Assembly: GCF_001577775.1 (NCBI RefSeq)
Contig: NZ_CP010835.1
Span: 310,001 to 374,000, forward strand
Length of the DNA: 64,000 bases
Source of the DNA: Pyrococcus kukulkanii
GTDB lineage: Archaea; Methanobacteriota_B; Thermococci; Thermococcales; Thermococcaceae
Direction: 5' to 3'
The translations under genes were made by a program, and so were the position numbers. The notes below the pieces were generated by a model. It was not told where the DNA came from and did not search any database. It worked only from the letters and a program-made list of their open reading frames with translations. Positions 46,065 to 55,090 of this stretch are shown here, piece by piece; the first letter of the stretch is position 1, and every line of letters begins with the position of its first letter.

Positions 46065-47771
46065 ATGCCCGAGGAGAGGATCAGCATATTCGTCAAGGCA
46101 GACGTTGATCCAAAGGAGTACGTGAGGAAAATATTGATTCCGGGGTTAGCTGGCTCTGCTGTAATCTTTATAGTTATAAACGTCTTCAACAAGCTGATAG
46201 CTTTACCCACGGGGTTAAGGCTGTTCATGTATCTCATTCCCATAATCTTGGCATTGTACGTCGTTGCCTATCCTTACTTGATGGCTGACTCCAAGAGGAT
46301 AAGCATAAACTCCAAGCTGCCCTTCTTCATAACTTATTTTGCCGTACTCTCGACGAGCGAGATAGGTAGGAGTGACTTACTCAAGGTTCTCGCGAGCGAC
46401 CCAAAGCTTGGAGCAATAGCTAGTGAGTTGAAGAAGGTATACATAATAGTTGATAAGCTCCACCGCTCGATGCCCGAGGCATTTAGATTCCTCGCGAGGA
46501 GAACCCCAAGCAGGGTTTTTGCAGATTTCCTTGATAGGCTCGCATATTCTCTTGATAGCGGTGTCGAGCTTAAGGACTATTTATTCCAAGAGCAGCAAAC
46601 GGTCATGGACGACTTCCAGACATTTTACGAGGGTGCACTCTACGACCTTGACATCTTCAAGGAGATCTACGAGTCGATCATAATCTCGGTGGTATTCGCG
46701 GCGGCCTTCATAATCATTGGTCCCCTTATCACGGGACAAAATATAGGGAGGCTCGCCCTCTACCTAATCTTCCTGATCTTGGCTGCAGAGATAGGAACGC
46801 TACTCGTCATAAAGTACAGGATGCCCGAAGATCCCATATGGGCCGAGGTTAAGGTCAAGACCCCGAGGCAGGAGAAGATAAAGAGGGCTCTAATCATATC
46901 CATCGCGCTTATTCCAGTGGTTTTTCTTGTTTATATGGCCTTCATAAGGCCGAGGTTCTCCATTCCAACTCCGTTCGTGATAGCCCTAACATTGACTCCC
47001 CTAATATACGTTGGCAATGTCGTGAGGAAGGAGGAGGCCTCGATATTCAGGAAAGATGAGAACTTCCCGGCCTTCATAAGGAGCCTTGCCTCCTCCCTTG
47101 CGGCAAGTGGTGCATCCCTACTCTTGGTCTTGAAGTACCTTAGCGCCCATGACTTCGGAACACTAACCGAGGATATAAGGGCCCTCTACAGGAGGTTGGC
47201 CGTTAGAGTCGACTCCCAAAGGGCTTGGGACTTCTTCATAGCTGAAACTGGTAGCTGGCTTATCGGAATATTCTCGGAGATATTCAGGGAGAGCCTAAGG
47301 CTCGGTGCTGAACCGGACTACGTTGGTAAGGTCATAAGCAGGAACTTCGAGAGGTTAGTAAGGCTTAGGAGGAAGAGGCAGCAGAGTGTTTCAAACTTCA
47401 TCGGAATAATCCTCGGTTTAACTGGTGCATTCGCCTTCGCCTTAGCTGCATCGTTCCAGGTTGCAGTGTCAATTAACGATCTCTTCAGCAAGCTCCAGGT
47501 ACCAACCGAATACATTGGGGACATAATCCACGTTATTCCCCCATCAGGAATGCAACTGCTCACGATCTCCATGTTGGTCATGATGATAGCCCACTCCCTG
47601 CTTTCGGCCATGGCCATAAAGATTGCGGATGGTGGGCACATACTCGGCTCCCTCTACTACTTCGTAATCCTGCTTTGGGTCTTCGCTACTGGAATGTACG
47701 TAGGTCAGGAGTTGATGGGGAGGTTCATGCAGCTTGGCAGCGGTGAGTTAATACTACTCCTCGTGAGGTGA
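46065..47771 (+). CDS. arlJ: Archaellum membrane platform protein ArlJ
   Basis: A 568-residue polytopic protein with about nine transmembrane segments and two GspF-like cytoplasmic helical domains. It is the membrane platform on which ArlI works. GAGGTGATGCC precedes the ATG. The next gene overlaps its stop, so both are translationally coupled. Confidence 0.94.
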   Translation: MPEERISIFVKADVDPKEYVRKILIPGLAGSAVIFIVINVFNKLIALPTGLRLFMYLIPIILALYVVAYPYLMADSKRISINSKLPFFITYFAVLSTSEIGRSDLLKVLASDPKLGAIASELKKVYIIVDKLHRSMPEAFRFLARRTPSRVFADFLDRLAYSLDSGVELKDYLFQEQQTVMDDFQTFYEGALYDLDIFKEIYESIIISVVFAAAFIIIGPLITGQNIGRLALYLIFLILAAEIGTLLVIKYRMPEDPIWAEVKVKTPRQEKIKRALIISIALIPVVFLVYMAFIRPRFSIPTPFVIALTLTPLIYVGNVVRKEEASIFRKDENFPAFIRSLASSLAASGASLLLVLKYLSAHDFGTLTEDIRALYRRLAVRVDSQRAWDFFIAETGSWLIGIFSEIFRESLRLGAEPDYVGKVISRNFERLVRLRRKRQQSVSNFIGIILGLTGAFAFALAASFQVAVSINDLFSKLQVPTEYIGDIIHVIPPSGMQLLTISMLVMMIAHSLLSAMAIKIADGGHILGSLYYFVILLWVFATGMYVGQELMGRFMQLGSGELILLLVR

Positions 47772-47776
47772 GGGAA

Positions 47777-49723
47777 ATGAGAAAAGCACTCGCTGTAATA
47801 TTAATGCTAACTTTCCTTCCCCAGGTCCTTGCATCTTCGTTCATTGGCTGGGTGAGCTTGGGAGAGGGGATAACGTTTGGGAACGTTACCTTAGGATTCA
47901 TCGACGTTGACATGGGCGGGGAAGTTTACGTTCAGGAGGAGTTCAACGGATCCATAAGCTCGTACTCCATTTCATTGGGTGAGCTCTACAAATTTACCCA
48001 CTCCAATGTCACCGTACTTAGGGTCTTCTTAGGAGAGCCCCCGATGCTCTACGTTAATGCGACATTTCCCCCAATTTTCGTTGGCGAGAAAGTTGAGGTT
48101 GGTAACTTAACTTTGAAGGTTGATAATGTTAATGTGGACTCTTTTGAGGTTCTTGCCTCGTATAACGGTGAGGAGAAGACGTTTAAAGATACAAAGTTTG
48201 ACTTTGCCAACTACTCGATAACGATAACCCCAAGGCCCCTCCTGTTTAGGGGAGAGGTCAAGATAGGGGATAACGTTACGTATGGAGACCTTAGGCTTGA
48301 GATCAAGGGGATAAACATGACCCTTGTCAATAACAAAACCTCAAGCGTCATCTCCGTTGAATACAATGGTGAAGAATACAAGATCGAGGAAGGGGAAACG
48401 AAGGTAGTTGGTAAGTTCATAGTCAAGTACATCGGCTTCAGATGTGTCATGGTTAACAACATGTGCGATCCGAGGATATCCATCGAGGTCTACTTGAGGG
48501 CCCTTCAGATCAACGTTTCCTACGATCCATCGAGGGAATTCACGGTTTATGAAGGCAAGGATCACGCCATTGGCCCCTACATGGTGAGGGTGAAGGGCAT
48601 AGCTGATGGCGTAGCCTACATCTCCATCCTCAACTCCTGTCACGACGAGCTTAAGGACGGAGTGGTTAGGGCGAGTTCCCAATGGATAAGTCCGATGACT
48701 TACGACGGGATAAGCATTGGCCTGTTGAACACGAGTGAGGATTCGGGAGGTAAGAAAGCTACCTTCATAACCTTCTACAATCCAAGGGAGAAGCCAAGGT
48801 ACCTTGCCCTCCTAAACGTAACCGTTTTACCCCAGGAAAACTTTACTGCGCTCGTTCCTGGGGTTGTGAAGATAGTTGTTAAGAACGTAGGAACGAGTCC
48901 AGTTTATAATGCCCTCCTGACGTTCTCCCCAGGGGAAGGTTTTGATGTCCTTGGCGATAACGAGGCTTACATAGATAAACTTGATCCCGGAAAAGAAAAG
49001 ATCATTGAGCTTAGGGTTGTTCCATTAAGAAACGGGACGATTTCCCTGGGTAAAGCAGAAGTTGTGGCTCCTATTCCCTATCCTCTGGCTTGTGGTGGCC
49101 TTAAGGTGATTGGCTTTACATCAAATGAGCCAATCGTTAGGGTTAGTCCCGTAAGTGTTAACTTCGTTGTAACATCTCCAAGCGAGGTACCGGCGGGAAT
49201 GCCGTTTGATGTGAACTTCACCCTCAAAGCTCCAACGGGCTTCCTGGGGAACTTAACGCTGAAGCTTCCAAAGGGTATCGGCTTGATATCCCAGGGAGAG
49301 GTAATTGGTGGAGAAGTCAAGGTCCCGGTGATCCCAGGAAACTCAACGATAAAGCTTGTAGCCGTTACCCCGGGCAACTACACGCTAACCGGAGAGCTTG
49401 AGTCATTTGGTAAGGTTATCTATGGGATCAAATTCAACGTAACCGTCCTTAAGCCAAGTAATGAAGCTTCAGTTATCACGATTACGGAGACCAGGGAAGT
49501 TACTAAGACGATAAGCGTTGGTAACGTCACGAAGACAATGACAGTAACTCAGACGGTAACTACCACAACCCAGGTGACGAAGCAAGTCTCGGTAACCTTC
49601 ACCACAACGACAACGGTCAAAGAGGTGGTAACCAGGTGGAGTTGGCTGACCTTTATAATAGGAATAGCGATAGGGGCCGGGATAATAATCCTCATTGCTT
49701 GGATTCAGGCTCAGCGCTCTTAA
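47777..49723 (+). CDS. Large S-layer-like surface protein linked to the archaellum operon
   Basis: About 648 residues. Signal peptide (RKALAVILMLTFLPQVLA), a long beta-rich outer region with repeated S-layer/COG1361-like units, many sequons, a Thr/Val stalk (about 585-620) and a C-terminal membrane anchor (WLTFIIGIAIGAGIIILIAW) followed by a short tail. GAGGTGAGGGAA makes ATG 47777 the start. It directly follows arlJ without gap, so it is expressed with the motor; an archaellum envelope or anchor role is an inference. Confidence 0.75.
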   Translation: MRKALAVILMLTFLPQVLASSFIGWVSLGEGITFGNVTLGFIDVDMGGEVYVQEEFNGSISSYSISLGELYKFTHSNVTVLRVFLGEPPMLYVNATFPPIFVGEKVEVGNLTLKVDNVNVDSFEVLASYNGEEKTFKDTKFDFANYSITITPRPLLFRGEVKIGDNVTYGDLRLEIKGINMTLVNNKTSSVISVEYNGEEYKIEEGETKVVGKFIVKYIGFRCVMVNNMCDPRISIEVYLRALQINVSYDPSREFTVYEGKDHAIGPYMVRVKGIADGVAYISILNSCHDELKDGVVRASSQWISPMTYDGISIGLLNTSEDSGGKKATFITFYNPREKPRYLALLNVTVLPQENFTALVPGVVKIVVKNVGTSPVYNALLTFSPGEGFDVLGDNEAYIDKLDPGKEKIIELRVVPLRNGTISLGKAEVVAPIPYPLACGGLKVIGFTSNEPIVRVSPVSVNFVVTSPSEVPAGMPFDVNFTLKAPTGFLGNLTLKLPKGIGLISQGEVIGGEVKVPVIPGNSTIKLVAVTPGNYTLTGELESFGKVIYGIKFNVTVLKPSNEASVITITETREVTKTISVGNVTKTMTVTQTVTTTTQVTKQVSVTFTTTTTVKEVVTRWSWLTFIIGIAIGAGIIILIAWIQAQRS

Positions 49724-50618
49724 GCCCCCACCACTCGTATATTACGCTTCCATCTATCACCCCGTAAACGTCGATTCCATCAAGTGTGTAGTGGATAATT
49801 GGGCTTCCAATTATCTTAGCTATCTTCTTCAGGCTCTTCTCGTCGTTAACAAGAACCCTTGAGCTTATTCCCTTTGGTATTCCCTCTATTGCATTTATCT
49901 TCCTCTTCGGCCTGGGCTTCCAAAGTGCAAGGAGGGCTATTCCCGAAATTAGTGTCAATATAGGGAACACAACCCTTGCAGTCGAAACGTTCATGCCAAG
50001 TAGCTTATTGTTTACCGTACTCGTCTCAACGATGTTCCTCTTCTTCTCAAGCTCCGTGTTCTTGATGTAAGTTAACCCGCTCGTATCTTCAACTATCGGC
50101 ATTTCCTGAGAGAACTCACCTTCCCTTGTCCTGACCTTGGCGGTAACCTTGACCTCGTACTGAATCCTTGGAAGCTGTAGTGCCTCGGCGAGCTCTTTCC
50201 TTCTCTCCTTAATTTTTGTCAAGTTTACGCTGAAGCTTTGGCTAAAAGTTCCATTAAGTAGCTTTCCCTTAGTTGAGAACAAGGTTTCATTTACCAGGTA
50301 GATCTTGTCCTGCCCCTTGGTTACGTAGTATGAAGCCGTGCCGAGTATGTAGTATGAGCCGCTCTCACTAGGCTCTATGGAGTATGTGTAGTTCCCGTAT
50401 ATTGCCTCAAGTATCCTCGTTGGATAGTACTCTAGGCTCGCGATTCTCCCATAGACAGTATCGTTCGCTAAGTAAGCTGAGTGCTTGAGCTCTCCCCTTT
50501 GAATTACTTGCTCAATTAAGGTTGTCTTCTCGTACCCCTCGCTCTTTAAATAGGAGGCGAGGCTCATCGTGAGTAACAACACAAATATGGCCCCTATAAC
50601 GTACTCCTTCCTCATCAT
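49692..50618 (-). CDS. DUF5305 membrane protein of the pilus-like operon
   Basis: A 308-residue protein with an N-terminal membrane helix, an outer domain (about 30-205, sequons NYT, NET, NLT), a second helix near 215-235 (ARVVFPILTLISGIALLAL) and a cytoplasmic C-terminal domain. It fits DUF5305, often found near signal peptidases in archaea. Its start overlaps the upstream stop as ATGA. The tail overlaps the S-layer-like gene by 32 bp. Confidence 0.75.
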   Translation of the reverse strand: MMRKEYVIGAIFVLLLTMSLASYLKSEGYEKTTLIEQVIQRGELKHSAYLANDTVYGRIASLEYYPTRILEAIYGNYTYSIEPSESGSYYILGTASYYVTKGQDKIYLVNETLFSTKGKLLNGTFSQSFSVNLTKIKERRKELAEALQLPRIQYEVKVTAKVRTREGEFSQEMPIVEDTSGLTYIKNTELEKKRNIVETSTVNNKLLGMNVSTARVVFPILTLISGIALLALWKPRPKRKINAIEGIPKGISSRVLVNDEKSLKKIAKIIGSPIIHYTLDGIDVYGVIDGSVIYEWWGLKSAEPESKQ

Positions 50619-50989
50619 CCTTTACAACTCCTTCTATGGTGGTGACAGTGAGGAATACAGCATCCTTTTATCTTCGCTCCTCCTCCGTCCCACTCTGCCT
50701 TGATACAGTAAAATAAACATATATCAATCATTTTCTCATCTCCCGGCATCAACGTGAACTCTCTGGGTATCAAGCATGGAAAGCAGAAGACCCTGAAGTC
50801 AACGGGAACGTTCATATTGTTCGTAATGACAACGCTTCCGTTCTTTAAGCATTCAACGTCTATCAGGGGATCATTACCAATCTTTACGATGATCTCCCTT
50901 TCCGCGGTGTAGCTCCTGAACGTAGATGCAGAGCCCGAAATGGTTAAGGCGAGTGCTATGAGCAATATTCCAAATATTTTCCTAATCAT
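50615..50989 (-). CDS. Small secreted Cys/His-rich protein related to TasA-like subunits at its N-terminus
   Basis: A 124-residue protein with a signal peptide (MIRKIFGILLIALALTISGS) and, right after it, STFRSYTAERE, comparable to ANFRYFEASRD and ANFRDYNASRS of the two DUF1102 genes. It contains nine cysteines and ends in CCIPHCHHHRRSC, a likely metal or disulfide cluster. It is coupled by ATGA overlaps with its neighbours on both sides. A minor subunit or assembly adaptor is a reasonable guess. Confidence 0.65.
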   Translation of the reverse strand: MIRKIFGILLIALALTISGSASTFRSYTAEREIIVKIGNDPLIDVECLKNGSVVITNNMNVPVDFRVFCFPCLIPREFTLMPGDEKMIDICLFYCIKAEWDGGGAKIKGCCIPHCHHHRRSCKG

Positions 50990-51966
50990 TTCTTAGATCT
51001 CCTAACAGCTATTACCTCGGGTTCCCCGAGGAGTGGTTTTATCGCGAGCATGCCGAAGAACACCATTAGTCCCTCAATAATGAGGGGAAGGTGGGGCTCT
51101 ATTGAGTAAAGTCTCTCCACGATCGAGGGGGGTAGTATTGGGTAGTAGGAGTATACGCTTATCCTCTCCCTGTATACCCTCGTTTCCTCCGGAACCTCTA
51201 TCCTTATTGGAACTGAAATCTCTTCGTGACCTTTCAGCACGAAGGCCGTTCTATCCAGAACCTTCCCTTCAGCTATTATGAGCATTGGGATGTAACTTGG
51301 ATTACTTATGGTAACGTTCTTCTCAACCACGCTCCCAGGGAGGTACCAGCCCTCCTTTTGGCCTCCAGCTAGCGTAGAGGCGTAGGTTACATCTATTCCT
51401 CCCCAGCTCATCGAGCCTACAAAGATCATGGTCATCGCCAGCAAACCAGCGAGGCCAATATATACCTGTTCAGTCGTTATTACAACCCTTCTCTTTCTTC
51501 TTCTCTTTACTTCTGAATCCGAAACTATCGACAACAAACCTGCAACGCCGAGTAGAGCCATTCCGAGCGGTGAATTTACGTGCTTCCCGAGTCCCGGAAT
51601 CTTTACTGGTTTTCCCCGTACCGTTATCACCTTCCCAATTACTTGATCCCTTGGAATTGGCGGATTCTTGCCATCCTGCTGATCGGTGGCAACGTTATTG
51701 TCTCCTTTGGTTATGTAACCCTCTTCGGTTATCGCGTACACCCTGTGAACCGTCCACTTGCCCGAGAGGTTGAAGACTATTATATCACCAACATCCCCCT
51801 TGGATAGGGGATTTATGAAGAAGACGTCCCATCTCTTAAGGGTGGGATACATGCTATCGGAGTAAACGTATGAAACGAACACGGGCCTCCCTAAGAAGAA
51901 GCCAATTATCGACGGAATTACTAAGCTGAAGATAACAACTGAGAGCAAGATTTCGGAGGCCCTCAT
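50986..51966 (-). CDS. Signal peptidase I (S26B, SipW-like) with extra C-terminal domain
   Basis: A 326-residue membrane protease. The catalytic Ser is in SDSMYPTL, the His in TVHRVY and the Asp in TKGDNN, the Ser-His-Asp set of the archaeal/ER type. After about residue 150 there are further membrane helices and an outer beta domain (about 195-290), so it is twice the normal length. Position in the DUF1102 operon suggests a dedicated enzyme for the TasA-like precursors, like SipW for TasA. Confidence 0.85.
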   Translation of the reverse strand: MRASEILLSVVIFSLVIPSIIGFFLGRPVFVSYVYSDSMYPTLKRWDVFFINPLSKGDVGDIIVFNLSGKWTVHRVYAITEEGYITKGDNNVATDQQDGKNPPIPRDQVIGKVITVRGKPVKIPGLGKHVNSPLGMALLGVAGLLSIVSDSEVKRRRKRRVVITTEQVYIGLAGLLAMTMIFVGSMSWGGIDVTYASTLAGGQKEGWYLPGSVVEKNVTISNPSYIPMLIIAEGKVLDRTAFVLKGHEEISVPIRIEVPEETRVYRERISVYSYYPILPPSIVERLYSIEPHLPLIIEGLMVFFGMLAIKPLLGEPEVIAVRRSKK

Positions 51967-52009
51967 GGCTTAAACCACCAAGATTTAAAAAGAAGGGACA
52001 AAAGTCCCT

Positions 52010-52546
52010 TCATTGAGTACATTCACCTGCTACGGCGTTTATATCGATCTGAATTTGCTGGCCTCCAAGTCCCTGGCCTGTAGTGTTAAAGATCATTCCT
52101 ATCTTTACTGGACTTCCATGGTATACCGTAACCTTAATGGTTTCTGCTGGGCCCGCTGTTGGATTGTCAAATGAACCTGCGAATAGTTTAACTCCTCCAC
52201 CCTCGTCGGCCTTTAAGGTTACGCAGATTGGGTAATCCTCATCGGCATTTTCCCATAGCTCGTTGCTGACCTCAAACATTTCCTCAAACACGTAGATGCT
52301 GTCAGGGCTGAGGCCGGCTCCATATCCTGGGTACTGGGGGTGGTTTGACGATATCTCAACGGTCATTTTTCCATTGTTCATGTAAACATAGGGCTGTAGT
52401 GGCGTAAGGTCAATTAGCTCAGTATCATCCGACACTATGGCAACATTCACATCCCTACTTGCCTCAAAGTACCTGAAGTTGGCTCCAGCGCCAACCGCTA
52501 ACATTAGCCCTGCAAAGAACAGGGCAAACCCAAATAACTTATTCAT
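52010..52546 (-). CDS. DUF1102/TasA-like surface subunit 2
   Basis: A 178-residue secreted protein: signal peptide (to about 22, LAVGAGA), then NFRYFEASRDVNVAIVSDD and a beta-rich domain with DDTELIDLTPLQPY. It shares this pattern with the next gene (52563-53165). DUF1102 is an archaeal family comparable to TasA/camelysin, members of which form donor-strand filaments (AbpA-type bundling pili). Filament formation here is an inference. Confidence 0.8.
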   Translation of the reverse strand: MNKLFGFALFFAGLMLAVGAGANFRYFEASRDVNVAIVSDDTELIDLTPLQPYVYMNNGKMTVEISSNHPQYPGYGAGLSPDSIYVFEEMFEVSNELWENADEDYPICVTLKADEGGGVKLFAGSFDNPTAGPAETIKVTVYHGSPVKIGMIFNTTGQGLGGQQIQIDINAVAGECTQ

Positions 52547-52562
52547 TTCTCATACCTCCTTT

Positions 52563-53165
52563 TCACGGCTGCCCGCACTTGCCCGCTAAGTAAGCAGGCT
52601 CAGTGCCAAGCCTGTATGCCTTAATAACTATATCTCCAGTCCAAACATCTCCTGGGCTGTCTCCATTGGCTGATAGATCAACCCCTATCTTGACCATGTC
52701 GTTGTGGGGAACTACGAAACAAACCCAATCTCTTGCTGAGTCACTGGCTGATGCCGGAGTTCCATCGTATGCTGCATATACGTTTCCATCTGCTCCATAC
52801 AGCTCTATATGGCTGTTAGTGGACTTAATCTCTACTACGATATCCATGTCTTCCCAAAGGTGGTTGCTAACCCCGAAAACCTCGTCGAAGTTGTACTCTG
52901 CACTTGGGCTAATTCCGTCACCGTACCCTGGGTAGTTGGGGTTGTTTGGTGAGAAGTCAATAACTAACTTTCCAGTGGTTTCGTTGATGTACGAGTATGG
53001 CTGGATTGGTGTTAGGTCGATTAGCTCAGTGTCATCAGTTACTACGTCCCAATGGACGCTTCTGCTTGCGTTGTAGTCTCTAAAATTGGCCCCAGCCCCG
53101 AGAACGAGGCCGAATATGGCCACTAAGCCAAATATGGCAAGTCCAAATTTATTCACTTTCTCCAT
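52563..53165 (-). CDS. DUF1102/TasA-like surface subunit 1
   Basis: About 200 residues, with signal peptide, ANFRDYNASRSVHWDVVTDD and DDTELIDLTPIQPYSYINE. It is a paralog of the 52010-52546 protein and lies 16 bp before it, the first structural gene of the operon. ATG 53165 is preferred over GTG 53171. Its promoter (minus-strand CTATATAC at 53218-53227) is flanked by two palindromes. Confidence 0.8.
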   Translation of the reverse strand: MEKVNKFGLAIFGLVAIFGLVLGAGANFRDYNASRSVHWDVVTDDTELIDLTPIQPYSYINETTGKLVIDFSPNNPNYPGYGDGISPSAEYNFDEVFGVSNHLWEDMDIVVEIKSTNSHIELYGADGNVYAAYDGTPASASDSARDWVCFVVPHNDMVKIGVDLSANGDSPGDVWTGDIVIKAYRLGTEPAYLAGKCGQP

Positions 53166-53178
53166 CTCCACTCATTCT

Positions 53179-53197
53179 GGGCCTCATGATGAGACCC
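53179..53197. promoter_or_regulatory. Palindrome in the leader of the TasA-like operon
   Basis: GGG-C-CTCAT-G-ATGAG-A-CCC is a 19-bp palindrome with one mismatched pair (53179-53197). It covers the expected transcription start of the minus-strand operon, 14 bp upstream of ATG 53165. The matching layout with a second palindrome upstream of the TATA box suggests a repressor or a looped complex. Confidence 0.45.
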
Positions 53198-53247
53198 AAT
53201 CATGGATTTGGCTGACCTTGTATATAGGTAGTTCCGAATTAAAATCT

Positions 53248-53266
53248 TGGTAATGGGTAATTACCA
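53248..53266. promoter_or_regulatory. Palindrome upstream of the TasA-like operon promoter
   Basis: TGGTAAT (53248-53254) and ATTACCA (53260-53266) are perfect arms around GGGTA. The element overlaps the stop codon of the HTH regulator gene and lies about 25 bp upstream of the operon TATA box on the minus strand. Confidence 0.45.
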
Positions 53267-53719
53267 TTGTTCAGAAGCTTTAATCCAGTGGAAAATTGCC
53301 ACTCCAAGGAGGAGAAGGGATATTATAACCCCCTCGCTACTATTCCTAAGTAAGGAAGCTATCAAGGCTATTCCTGAGAAGGTTACATAAATCAGAGGCC
53401 AGGTGACAGATGTTTTTTTAATCTTCATATACCTATCAACTTCTTTGGGTACATCTAGTAGCTCAACGGTGCCCCTATTAACCTTAACTATCCCTTCCCT
53501 TTCCATCTTAGGAAGGTGGGTCTGAACCAGGCTTACGTAGATACTCTTCCTGTGCCTCCTTGTGTTATTTCCTTCCAAGTTGGCTATGTAATCAACGATC
53601 TCCCCAATTTCGGCCTTTCCATGATTTTTTCTTAAACATTCAACAACCCACATCCTCCTATCATTTCCCAGAATAGTCTTAGAAGATTGGGGTTGAGTGA
53701 AAAATATTGGAGGTATCAT
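53261..53719 (-). CDS. Membrane-bound winged-helix regulator (DUF7344-like)
   Basis: A 152-residue protein. The winged helix (about 22-90; RRMWVVECLRKNHGKAEIGE, RKSIYVSLVQTHLPKMEREG) is of the DUF7344 type, followed by two hydrophobic helices (105-122 and 128-145) that put it in the membrane. GGTGAGAT precedes ATG 53719. It lies 95 bp before the TasA-like genes on the same strand, so it is the likely local regulator. Confidence 0.75.
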   Translation of the reverse strand: MIPPIFFTQPQSSKTILGNDRRMWVVECLRKNHGKAEIGEIVDYIANLEGNNTRRHRKSIYVSLVQTHLPKMEREGIVKVNRGTVELLDVPKEVDRYMKIKKTSVTWPLIYVTFSGIALIASLLRNSSEGVIISLLLLGVAIFHWIKASEQW

Positions 53720-53847: not shown

Positions 53848-53923
53848 AGCCCCGTGGTGTAGCGGCCAAGCATGCGGGACTCTGGATCCCGCGACCGGGG
53901 TTCGAATCCCCGCGGGGCTACCA
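53848..53923 (+). tRNA. tRNA-Gln (CTG), CCA encoded
   Basis: 76 nt. Acceptor AGCCCCG/CGGGGCT, anticodon loop ACTCTGGAT with CTG, T-loop GGTTCGAATCC, discriminator A and encoded CCA. A TATA-like GTTTAAAAA lies at 53811-53819. Confidence 0.96.
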
Positions 53924-53983: not shown

Positions 53984-54071
53984 GCGGGGGTTGCCGAGCC
54001 TGGTCAAAGGCGGGGGACTCAAGATCCCCTCCCGTAGGGGTTCCGGGGTTCAAATCCCCGCCCCCGCACCA
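53984..54071 (+). tRNA. tRNA-Leu (CAA), CCA encoded
   Basis: 88 nt with the long variable arm of a type II tRNA (CCCTCCCGTAGGGG). Acceptor GCGGGGG/CCCCCGC, anticodon CAA, T-loop GGTTCAAATCC and encoded CCA. TATA-like TTTATAAGG at 53945-53953. The HEPN gene on the other strand runs into its 3' half. Confidence 0.96.
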
Positions 54072-54498
54072 ACTTCCCAATTTTCTCCACGAATTGTTTA
54101 GCTAACCTTAATGCATCCTCAGCCTCCTCTTTTGTAGGCGAGTAGCTGACGTCGTACTGGTCGGCATGTCTAATTTCTCTCATTCTGTCAAGCAAGTCTA
54201 CCCATTCTTGTTCTAGTTCTCCCGTTTTCACATAGAATTCCTCAAGGAACCTAGCCACACAGAAGTGGCTCTTTTCTCTCCACCCATCTTTGAAAAGTAA
54301 AGCCCTTGCAGAATGAAACATGGCAAGGTATGACGCAATTAATGAAGTTCTGTATGAACCAAATTTTAAATTCATTTCAGCTTCCACAAGCCACTCTTCG
54401 GCCCTTTTTAGACTGAGAAAAGCTTTTTCAGTTGAAGGAGGAACTCTTCTCAGAAGTCCTTTCTCTATACAAACTTTAAAGTTGTCTAAGGTTTTCAC
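54019..54498 (-). CDS. hepT: HEPN domain protein (putative RNase toxin)
   Basis: A 159-residue HEPN protein (SLKRAEEWLVEAEMNLKFGS, LAMFHSARALLF). The candidate RX4-6H motif is seen in DRMREIRHADQYD near 105-115. The last 17 codons (VRGRGFEPRNPYGRGS) are antisense to the tRNA-Leu 3' half, so the original end was probably replaced by recombination at the tRNA. Its start overlaps the MNT gene, forming an HEPN/MNT pair. Confidence 0.82.
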   Translation of the reverse strand: MKTLDNFKVCIEKGLLRRVPPSTEKAFLSLKRAEEWLVEAEMNLKFGSYRTSLIASYLAMFHSARALLFKDGWREKSHFCVARFLEEFYVKTGELEQEWVDLLDRMREIRHADQYDVSYSPTKEEAEDALRLAKQFVEKIGKLVRGRGFEPRNPYGRGS

Positions 54499-55015
54499 CC
54501 CATATTATTATCGACCCATAGATCAAGCTATAGTAAAAAATTGGATCTTCTTTTTTTAGTCTTTCGATTTTTTTCGGCGTAAGGACAAGCAAATCAACCT
54601 CCCTTTTTAAAGTGTCCCTGAGCTTCCTTTGGAACTTTGCTACCCTTATCATATCTTCTTCTTGGGTGTATATCCAGATATCTACATCACTACCTTCTTT
54701 ATTCTCTCCCCTTGAGAAACTTCCGTATATGCCTAAACCCTCTATCCACTCTTCTCTTAGTTGCGAAAGTTTTGGGTATAAGGTTAAGAAGTTTAGAAAT
54801 CTCTTGAGTTCCCTTGTTTTTGGGTTCAGGATTACTTTGAAATACCTCCCCTCTTTTTTTACAATACCTTCCTTTTCTAACATATGGAGAAGCTTTGATA
54901 CAAGCCCTTTACTAACTCCGAGCTTTTTTGCCGTTTCCTCTACCCTAATGGTATCTCGTTCGAGAATGTACCTCAAGATTTCAACTCGCTCCTTTGTTGA
55001 AATTAGCTTGTACAT
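54476..55015 (-). CDS. mntA: Winged-helix MNT nucleotidyltransferase (putative antitoxin and regulator)
   Basis: About 179 residues. An N-terminal winged helix (KERVEILRYILERDTIRVEE, KKLGVSKGLVSKLLHML) is fused to an MNT domain with IYGSFSRGENKEGSDVDIWI; the second acidic residue is in VDLLVL. The MNT would AMPylate the HEPN partner. ATG 55015 is one TATA distance from TTCATAAATT (55036-55045), so the mRNA is leaderless; a GTG at 55057 would extend into the operators. Three 17-bp palindromes lie upstream. Confidence 0.82.
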   Translation of the reverse strand: MYKLISTKERVEILRYILERDTIRVEETAKKLGVSKGLVSKLLHMLEKEGIVKKEGRYFKVILNPKTRELKRFLNFLTLYPKLSQLREEWIEGLGIYGSFSRGENKEGSDVDIWIYTQEEDMIRVAKFQRKLRDTLKREVDLLVLTPKKIERLKKEDPIFYYSLIYGSIIIWGENLRQL

Positions 55016-55029
55016 ATTGGGTGGATTTC

Positions 55030-55090
55030 GTTCACAATTTATGAACTTTTCTTTCACATTTTGTGAACGAATTGTTCACGAATCGTGAAC
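55030..55090. promoter_or_regulatory. Three tandem 17-bp palindromic operators between mntA and nikR
   Basis: The palindromes are 55030-55046 (GTTCA...TGAAC, one mismatched pair), 55052-55068 (TTCACA...TGTGAA) and 55074-55090 (GTTCACGAATCGTGAAC, perfect around the centre base). Their centres are exactly 22 bp apart. The first contains the TATA box of the HTH-MNT gene; the third lies directly before the nikR TATA box (CATAAATATT, 55094-55103). Consensus GTTCAC-N5-GTGAAC. Confidence 0.75.

Follow-up and report, generated by a model that had tools for sequence, protein, structure and literature searches.

A conserved Pyrococcus operon that probably makes a donor-strand surface pilus related to haloarchaeal Taf fimbriae

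Introduction

What do six genes beside the archaellum locus of Pyrococcus kukulkanii build? They lie at positions 49692 to 53719, on the minus strand, of a 64,000-nucleotide stretch of contig NZ_CP010835.1 (assembly GCF_001577775.1, forward-strand positions 310,001 to 374,000), which we call the window, and a first-pass annotation made from the letters alone had read them as a complete TasA/bundling-pilus operon, a second surface filament system independent of the type IV pilin machinery. Our best explanation, to which we give a probability of about three in four, is that the operon makes a thin donor-strand surface pilus, the Thermococcales/Archaeoglobi branch of a group that contains the haloarchaeal Taf fimbriae, and that this pilus resembles the AbpA bundling pili of Pyrobaculum calidifontis, which are donor-strand filaments (PMC9715654, PMC9674648). 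We document here the gene content and order, the co-occurrence of the parts, a shared N-terminal motif, the fold class of a subunit, and the homology between these parts and those of the Taf loci. The reading as a pilus operon is well supported, and in kind the operon is an ordinary one, a relative of known archaeal pili and no new type of machine, and the label TasA is applicable to it by analogy only.

Results

All six open reading frames (ORFs) were found where the first-pass annotation had placed them, and Pfam/NCBIfam profiles, by which we assigned the window proteins to families, bore out its part list. In the direction of the minus strand, the operon encodes a winged-helix regulator of the DUF7344 family that has a pair of membrane helices at its C-terminus (53261..53719; PF24035, 62 bits); two DUF1102 proteins, namely, subunit A (52563..53171, 202 amino acids; PF06510, 186 bits) and subunit B (52010..52546, 178 amino acids; PF06510, 177 bits), both against a cutoff of 22.2; an endoplasmic reticulum (ER)-type signal peptidase I (50986..51966, 326 amino acids; TIGR02228, 66.6 bits, cutoff of 51.9) with an extra outer domain; a small secreted protein of 124 amino acids with nine cysteines and no Pfam/NCBIfam family (50615..50989); and a DUF5305 protein (49692..50618; PF17231, 38.5 bits, cutoff of 29) laid out as membrane helix, outer domain, membrane helix, and cytoplasmic tail, which is presumed to be an anchor or assembly factor. 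The listed ORF of subunit A begins with a GTG, but the ATG at 53165 is just as possible a start and a likely one. The close packing was also as described: 16 bases separate A from B and 43 separate B from the peptidase gene, and ATGA overlaps join the peptidase gene to that of the Cys-rich protein (50986-50989) and the latter to the DUF5305 gene (50615-50618). No class III signal peptide, ATPase, or platform protein, the marks of a type IV pilus or archaellum that we looked for, is present in the operon. A sigma-70 promoter scan proved uninformative for archaeal DNA.

The mature N-terminus NFRxxxASR, which the first-pass annotation had noticed in both DUF1102 proteins, is seen in ANFRDYNASR (A) and ANFRYFEASR (B), and in the form F-x4-A-x-R it extends to the Cys-rich protein (STFRSYTAER). 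The motif lies at 53061..53084 in subunit A, where it is the presumed donor strand, at 52454..52477 in subunit B, and at 50897..50920 in the Cys-rich protein, always on the minus strand. Behind a hydrophobic stretch it occurs in only 3 of the 232 window ORFs of at least 50 amino acids, which are these three, and in 48 of 1053 ORFs across 20 loci, all 48 being operon subunits or proteins of the slot that the Cys-rich protein fills. Its position suggests that the signal peptide is cut just before N-F, which would leave Phe at P2'. The same start is found in haloarchaeal TafA, TafE, and TafC proteins.

Weak NCBIfam matches to TafA and TafE pointed to haloarchaeal genomes, whose Taf fimbria locus (TafA, TafC, TafE, and TafF; NF052520-NF052523) is the closest gene-for-gene match to the operon. 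In five haloarchaeal loci that carry TafF, TafE, TafA, and TafC, DUF7344 and a two-domain signal peptidase are always present, and DUF5305 was found by BLASTP in three of the five, with 148-209 bits. In pairwise hhalign comparisons, the E values of which are not database-calibrated, the operon's peptidase aligned with the Taf-locus peptidase over its whole length (100%, E value of 1.9e-42) and its outer domain alone with the corresponding domain (97.8%, E value of 8e-13). The DUF1102 set reached 96.5% against the Taf pilins and its mature part alone 66%, compared with 0.2% for reversed controls. In some haloarchaeal ORFs (e.g., G139:C1 1775038-1775574), the N-terminus matches TafA and the body matches DUF1102. 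The pilin of loci L103 and L112 is nearly identical to a haloarchaeal protein in the PDB, 9P0A, which is named "Pilin" (full-length match of 395 bits in L103), and L112 also contains DUF7344, the signal peptidase, and DUF5305. No match to the 9P0A N-terminus was found in the plasmid collection, and none to TafF among the operon proteins scanned, one subunit member scoring weakly (E value of 0.013). Common to the operon and the Taf loci are DUF7344, pilins starting with F-x4-A-x-R, DUF5305, a signal peptidase bearing the extra outer domain, and a larger tip-like protein sharing the pilin start. Unlike its Taf counterpart, which has a laminin-G domain, the tip-like protein here ends in DUF11 or shrinks to the Cys-rich protein, and the genes form a fixed co-directional operon with two to three DUF1102 paralogues.

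An AlphaFold2 model of subunit B, built from a 49-sequence input (pLDDT of 83.7), shows a signal helix at residues 2 to 19, a disordered stretch at residues 21 to 28, in the region of the motif, where pLDDT falls below 50, and a β-sandwich thereafter. Five PDB entries matched it in Foldseek at an E value of 1e-3 or better, four of FimA (N-terminally reversed variants included) and 7ueg_A from the Pyrobaculum bundling pili (E value of 7.8e-4, probability of 0.99, TM-score of 0.33). FimA pili share the donor-strand logic but belong to chaperone-usher systems, whereas the operon has no usher and no separate chaperone gene, and the cell has a single membrane. When compared with PDB sequences, A, B, and their profiles gave no significant match to AbpA or TasA.

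Four points weigh against our explanation. The TM-scores of subunit B to FimA and AbpA are low (0.33-0.43) and the rmsd is high; therefore, the fold class is supported and the assembly is not. Stripped of the N-terminal motif, the body of the subunit reaches a probability of just 11% against the Taf pilins in hhalign. The subunits do not attain the TafA/TafE cutoffs (best E value of 6.7e-4 for TafA, far under 190 bits), and in the window protein the TafA match is N-terminal only. Finally, the portions of the literature that we searched describe no thin non-archaellum filament of Pyrococcus, and the passages on P. furiosus tomography among them speak of archaella only. Low TM-scores and the commonness of Ig-like secreted proteins would also suit another explanation, in which A and B are monomeric, S-layer-associated or sheath proteins of the envelope that have a private signal peptidase and form no filament. 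We consider this improbable, though worth keeping in mind, given the F-x4-A-x-R start common to the subunits and the slot protein, the dedicated ER-type peptidase, FimA and AbpA as the top folds, and the same parts in haloarchaeal fimbria loci and in the locus of the solved pilin 9P0A.

A further explanation takes the name TasA literally: A and B would be TasA, the signal peptidase SipW, and the Cys-rich protein TapA, in a true TasA/camelysin system shared with Firmicutes. The operon indeed has several likenesses to TasA-SipW-TapA of Bacillus subtilis, including a secreted β-sandwich subunit, a dedicated ER-type peptidase in the operon, and Phe at P2', which in TasA accompanies the ER-type SipW (PMC10269814). 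The Cys-containing accessory protein with a subunit-type N-terminus recalls TapA, which has cysteines and the same first residues as TasA, and the tapA gene overlaps sipW as the gene of the Cys-rich protein overlaps that of the peptidase here (PMC10151520). As a precedent, the pairing of Phe at P2' with SipW and the first residues common to TapA and TasA speak for our own explanation as well. Archaeal bundling pili have been related to TasA in print (PMC9674648), and the peptidase gives a weak NCBIfam SipW score (27 bits against a cutoff of 190). However, the operon proteins gave no Pfam/NCBIfam match indicating TasA/camelysin homology, the 50 fold matches listed for subunit B include no TasA entry, and the gene set fits the haloarchaeal Taf loci instead, with DUF5305 and DUF7344, which are not part of the TasA system. 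We know of no outer domain in SipW comparable to the one described below. A true TasA system is thus a very unlikely account of the operon; in the earlier TasA/bundling-pilus identification, the TasA part is not supported, and AbpA is among the nearest solved folds of the subunit B model.

The cluster is no chance arrangement: DUF1102 is carried by 87 of the 94 Thermococcaceae genomes, including 72 of the 74 near-complete ones, mostly as adjacent copies; P. kukulkanii has two such genes. The order regulator, A, B, (C), signal peptidase, (slot), DUF5305 is identical in all 20 Thermococcaceae loci read, with subunit A present in each and the peptidase split across two ORFs in one (L047), and it also occurs in Archaeoglobus and Geoglobus metagenome-assembled genomes. 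Viral contigs, when searched, held no DUF1102 relative. The third DUF1102 paralogue, C, occurs in most non-Pyrococcus loci (e.g., L041:6012-6521) and is absent from the Pyrococcus loci read. It keeps a hydrophobic N-terminus and lacks the F-x4-A-x-R start, for which reason it could be an end or anchor subunit that accepts a strand and cannot donate one. The slot of the Pyrococcus Cys-rich protein is filled in Thermococcus by a protein of 300-460 amino acids with a subunit-like start followed by one or more DUF11 domains, plausibly a tip adhesin, and in an Archaeoglobaceae locus (L062) by a short version of 142 amino acids. The operon adjoins flaI/flaJ-type archaellum genes in Pyrococcus, as the first-pass annotation had noted, which could make it a sheath, an anchor, or a minor filament component of the archaellum, but since this adjacency is seen only in Pyrococcus and in 0 of the 13 non-Pyrococcus loci read, where the order is conserved all the same, it is incidental, and with a peptidase of class I rather than class III, such a role is hardly credible.

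The signal peptidase has invariant columns at Ser38, His74, and Asp89/Asp95. The genome holds two type I signal peptidases in all; the other, a housekeeping enzyme of 163 amino acids (G000:C1:374083-374517), lies 83 bases past the window end, and the operon's enzyme is very probably dedicated to the subunits. Its extra outer domain (51097..51408, minus strand) is modeled by AlphaFold2 as a β-sandwich between two membrane helices (pLDDT of 91.7), and the topology would place it on the catalytic side of the membrane. It is found as a single copy in each of 85 of the 94 Thermococcaceae genomes and is missing from both near-complete genomes without DUF1102; in G028 it is broken by stops. No PDB fold match of the model reached 1e-3; the only listed matches at a probability of 0.99 were two VAP MSP domains, with weak E values of 0.015-0.036. 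VAP MSP domains belong to the PapD-like superfamily. Because of the position between helices, the VAP MSP matches, and the co-occurrence with the subunits, we tentatively propose that the domain may be an Ig chaperone of PapD/MSP-like type, joined to the protease in one membrane protein that would cut the subunit, cap its groove, and pass it on to the thread. Such a fusion, if it exists, might replace both the chaperone and the usher of other pili in a single-membrane cell, an idea that we hold just as loosely.

Directly 3' of subunit B, a hairpin, GAAGGGAC-TTTT-GTCCCTTC, is followed by TTTTT (51992..52011, minus strand). Hairpins with a stem of 5-9 pairs and a loop of 3-5 are present in 21 of 21 Thermococcaceae loci (the window and the 20 others), with shuffle-test p values of 0-0.14 per locus. 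In an alignment of 15 sequences, 91% of the cells are paired, against 42-64% in slid controls, and four of the six pairs change on both sides; the pairing figure is biased because the rows were selected by the hairpin, and the paired changes are less so. The hairpin is absent from a few further Thermococci loci (L053 and L071) and from Archaeoglobi, some of which have T-runs instead. As it separates the subunit genes from the machinery genes, the simplest role that we can suggest for it is partial 3'-end formation.

Some neighboring features were also recorded. The operon is closely preceded by a tRNA-Gln gene in the window (53848-53923, plus strand) and in 17 of the 20 Thermococcaceae loci (L033-L051), though the strand of this tRNA gene and the remaining neighbors differ between loci. 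Farther upstream is a HEPN/nucleotidyltransferase (MNT) toxin-antitoxin-like pair (54019-55057, minus strand), the HEPN ORF of which overlaps a tRNA-Leu at 53984-54071. On the other side, after flaJ, a Thr-rich secreted or anchored protein of 651 amino acids (47768-49723, plus strand) overlaps the 3' end of the DUF5305 gene by 32 bases; it is fast-evolving (34-83% identity) and found only in Pyrococcus loci. The second DUF5305 match of the genome (G000:C1:190786-191142; L088) has two in-frame stops and is a decayed copy.

Discussion

The earlier proposal of a surface filament system holds in that the operon is dedicated, has its own ER-type signal peptidase, and contains no type IV pilin parts; the word "complete" goes too far for a set in which the assembly factors are presumptive. 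If the operon makes a donor-strand pilus, subunits A and B would be exported via Sec, and the operon's ER-type peptidase would cut A|N-F, to judge from the position of the motif, and so free the strand F-x4-A-x-R. The freed strand would fill the open groove of the adjoining DUF1102 subunit, and a thread could grow without ATPase or usher. The Cys-rich protein, or the DUF11 protein in Thermococcus, would join at one end only, as a tip adhesin or initiator. At the membrane, the Ig-like outer domain of the peptidase and the DUF5305 protein may hold the subunits and pass them on, while the DUF7344 regulator would control expression and the hairpin might keep the subunits in excess over the machinery. 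Sulfolobus threads (Saci_0406) are similar in having a class I signal peptide, a donor-strand filament, and no need of the class III peptidase; they differ in their motif (YYY, isopeptide Asp) and in their gene set.

The literature searched contains nothing on Taf fimbriae, DUF5305, or DUF7344 and no mention of DUF1102, and these families had no assigned function in the libraries searched. What is new here is a testable function for DUF1102, DUF5305, and the unnamed two-domain signal peptidase of nearly all Thermococcaceae, together with their tie to haloarchaeal pili. The outer domain of the peptidase makes it testable how single-membrane archaea build donor-strand pili without chaperone and usher. 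A second surface filament is thereby predicted for the genetically tractable Pyrococcus furiosus and Thermococcus kodakarensis, in which adhesion and cell-cell contacts have been credited to archaella.

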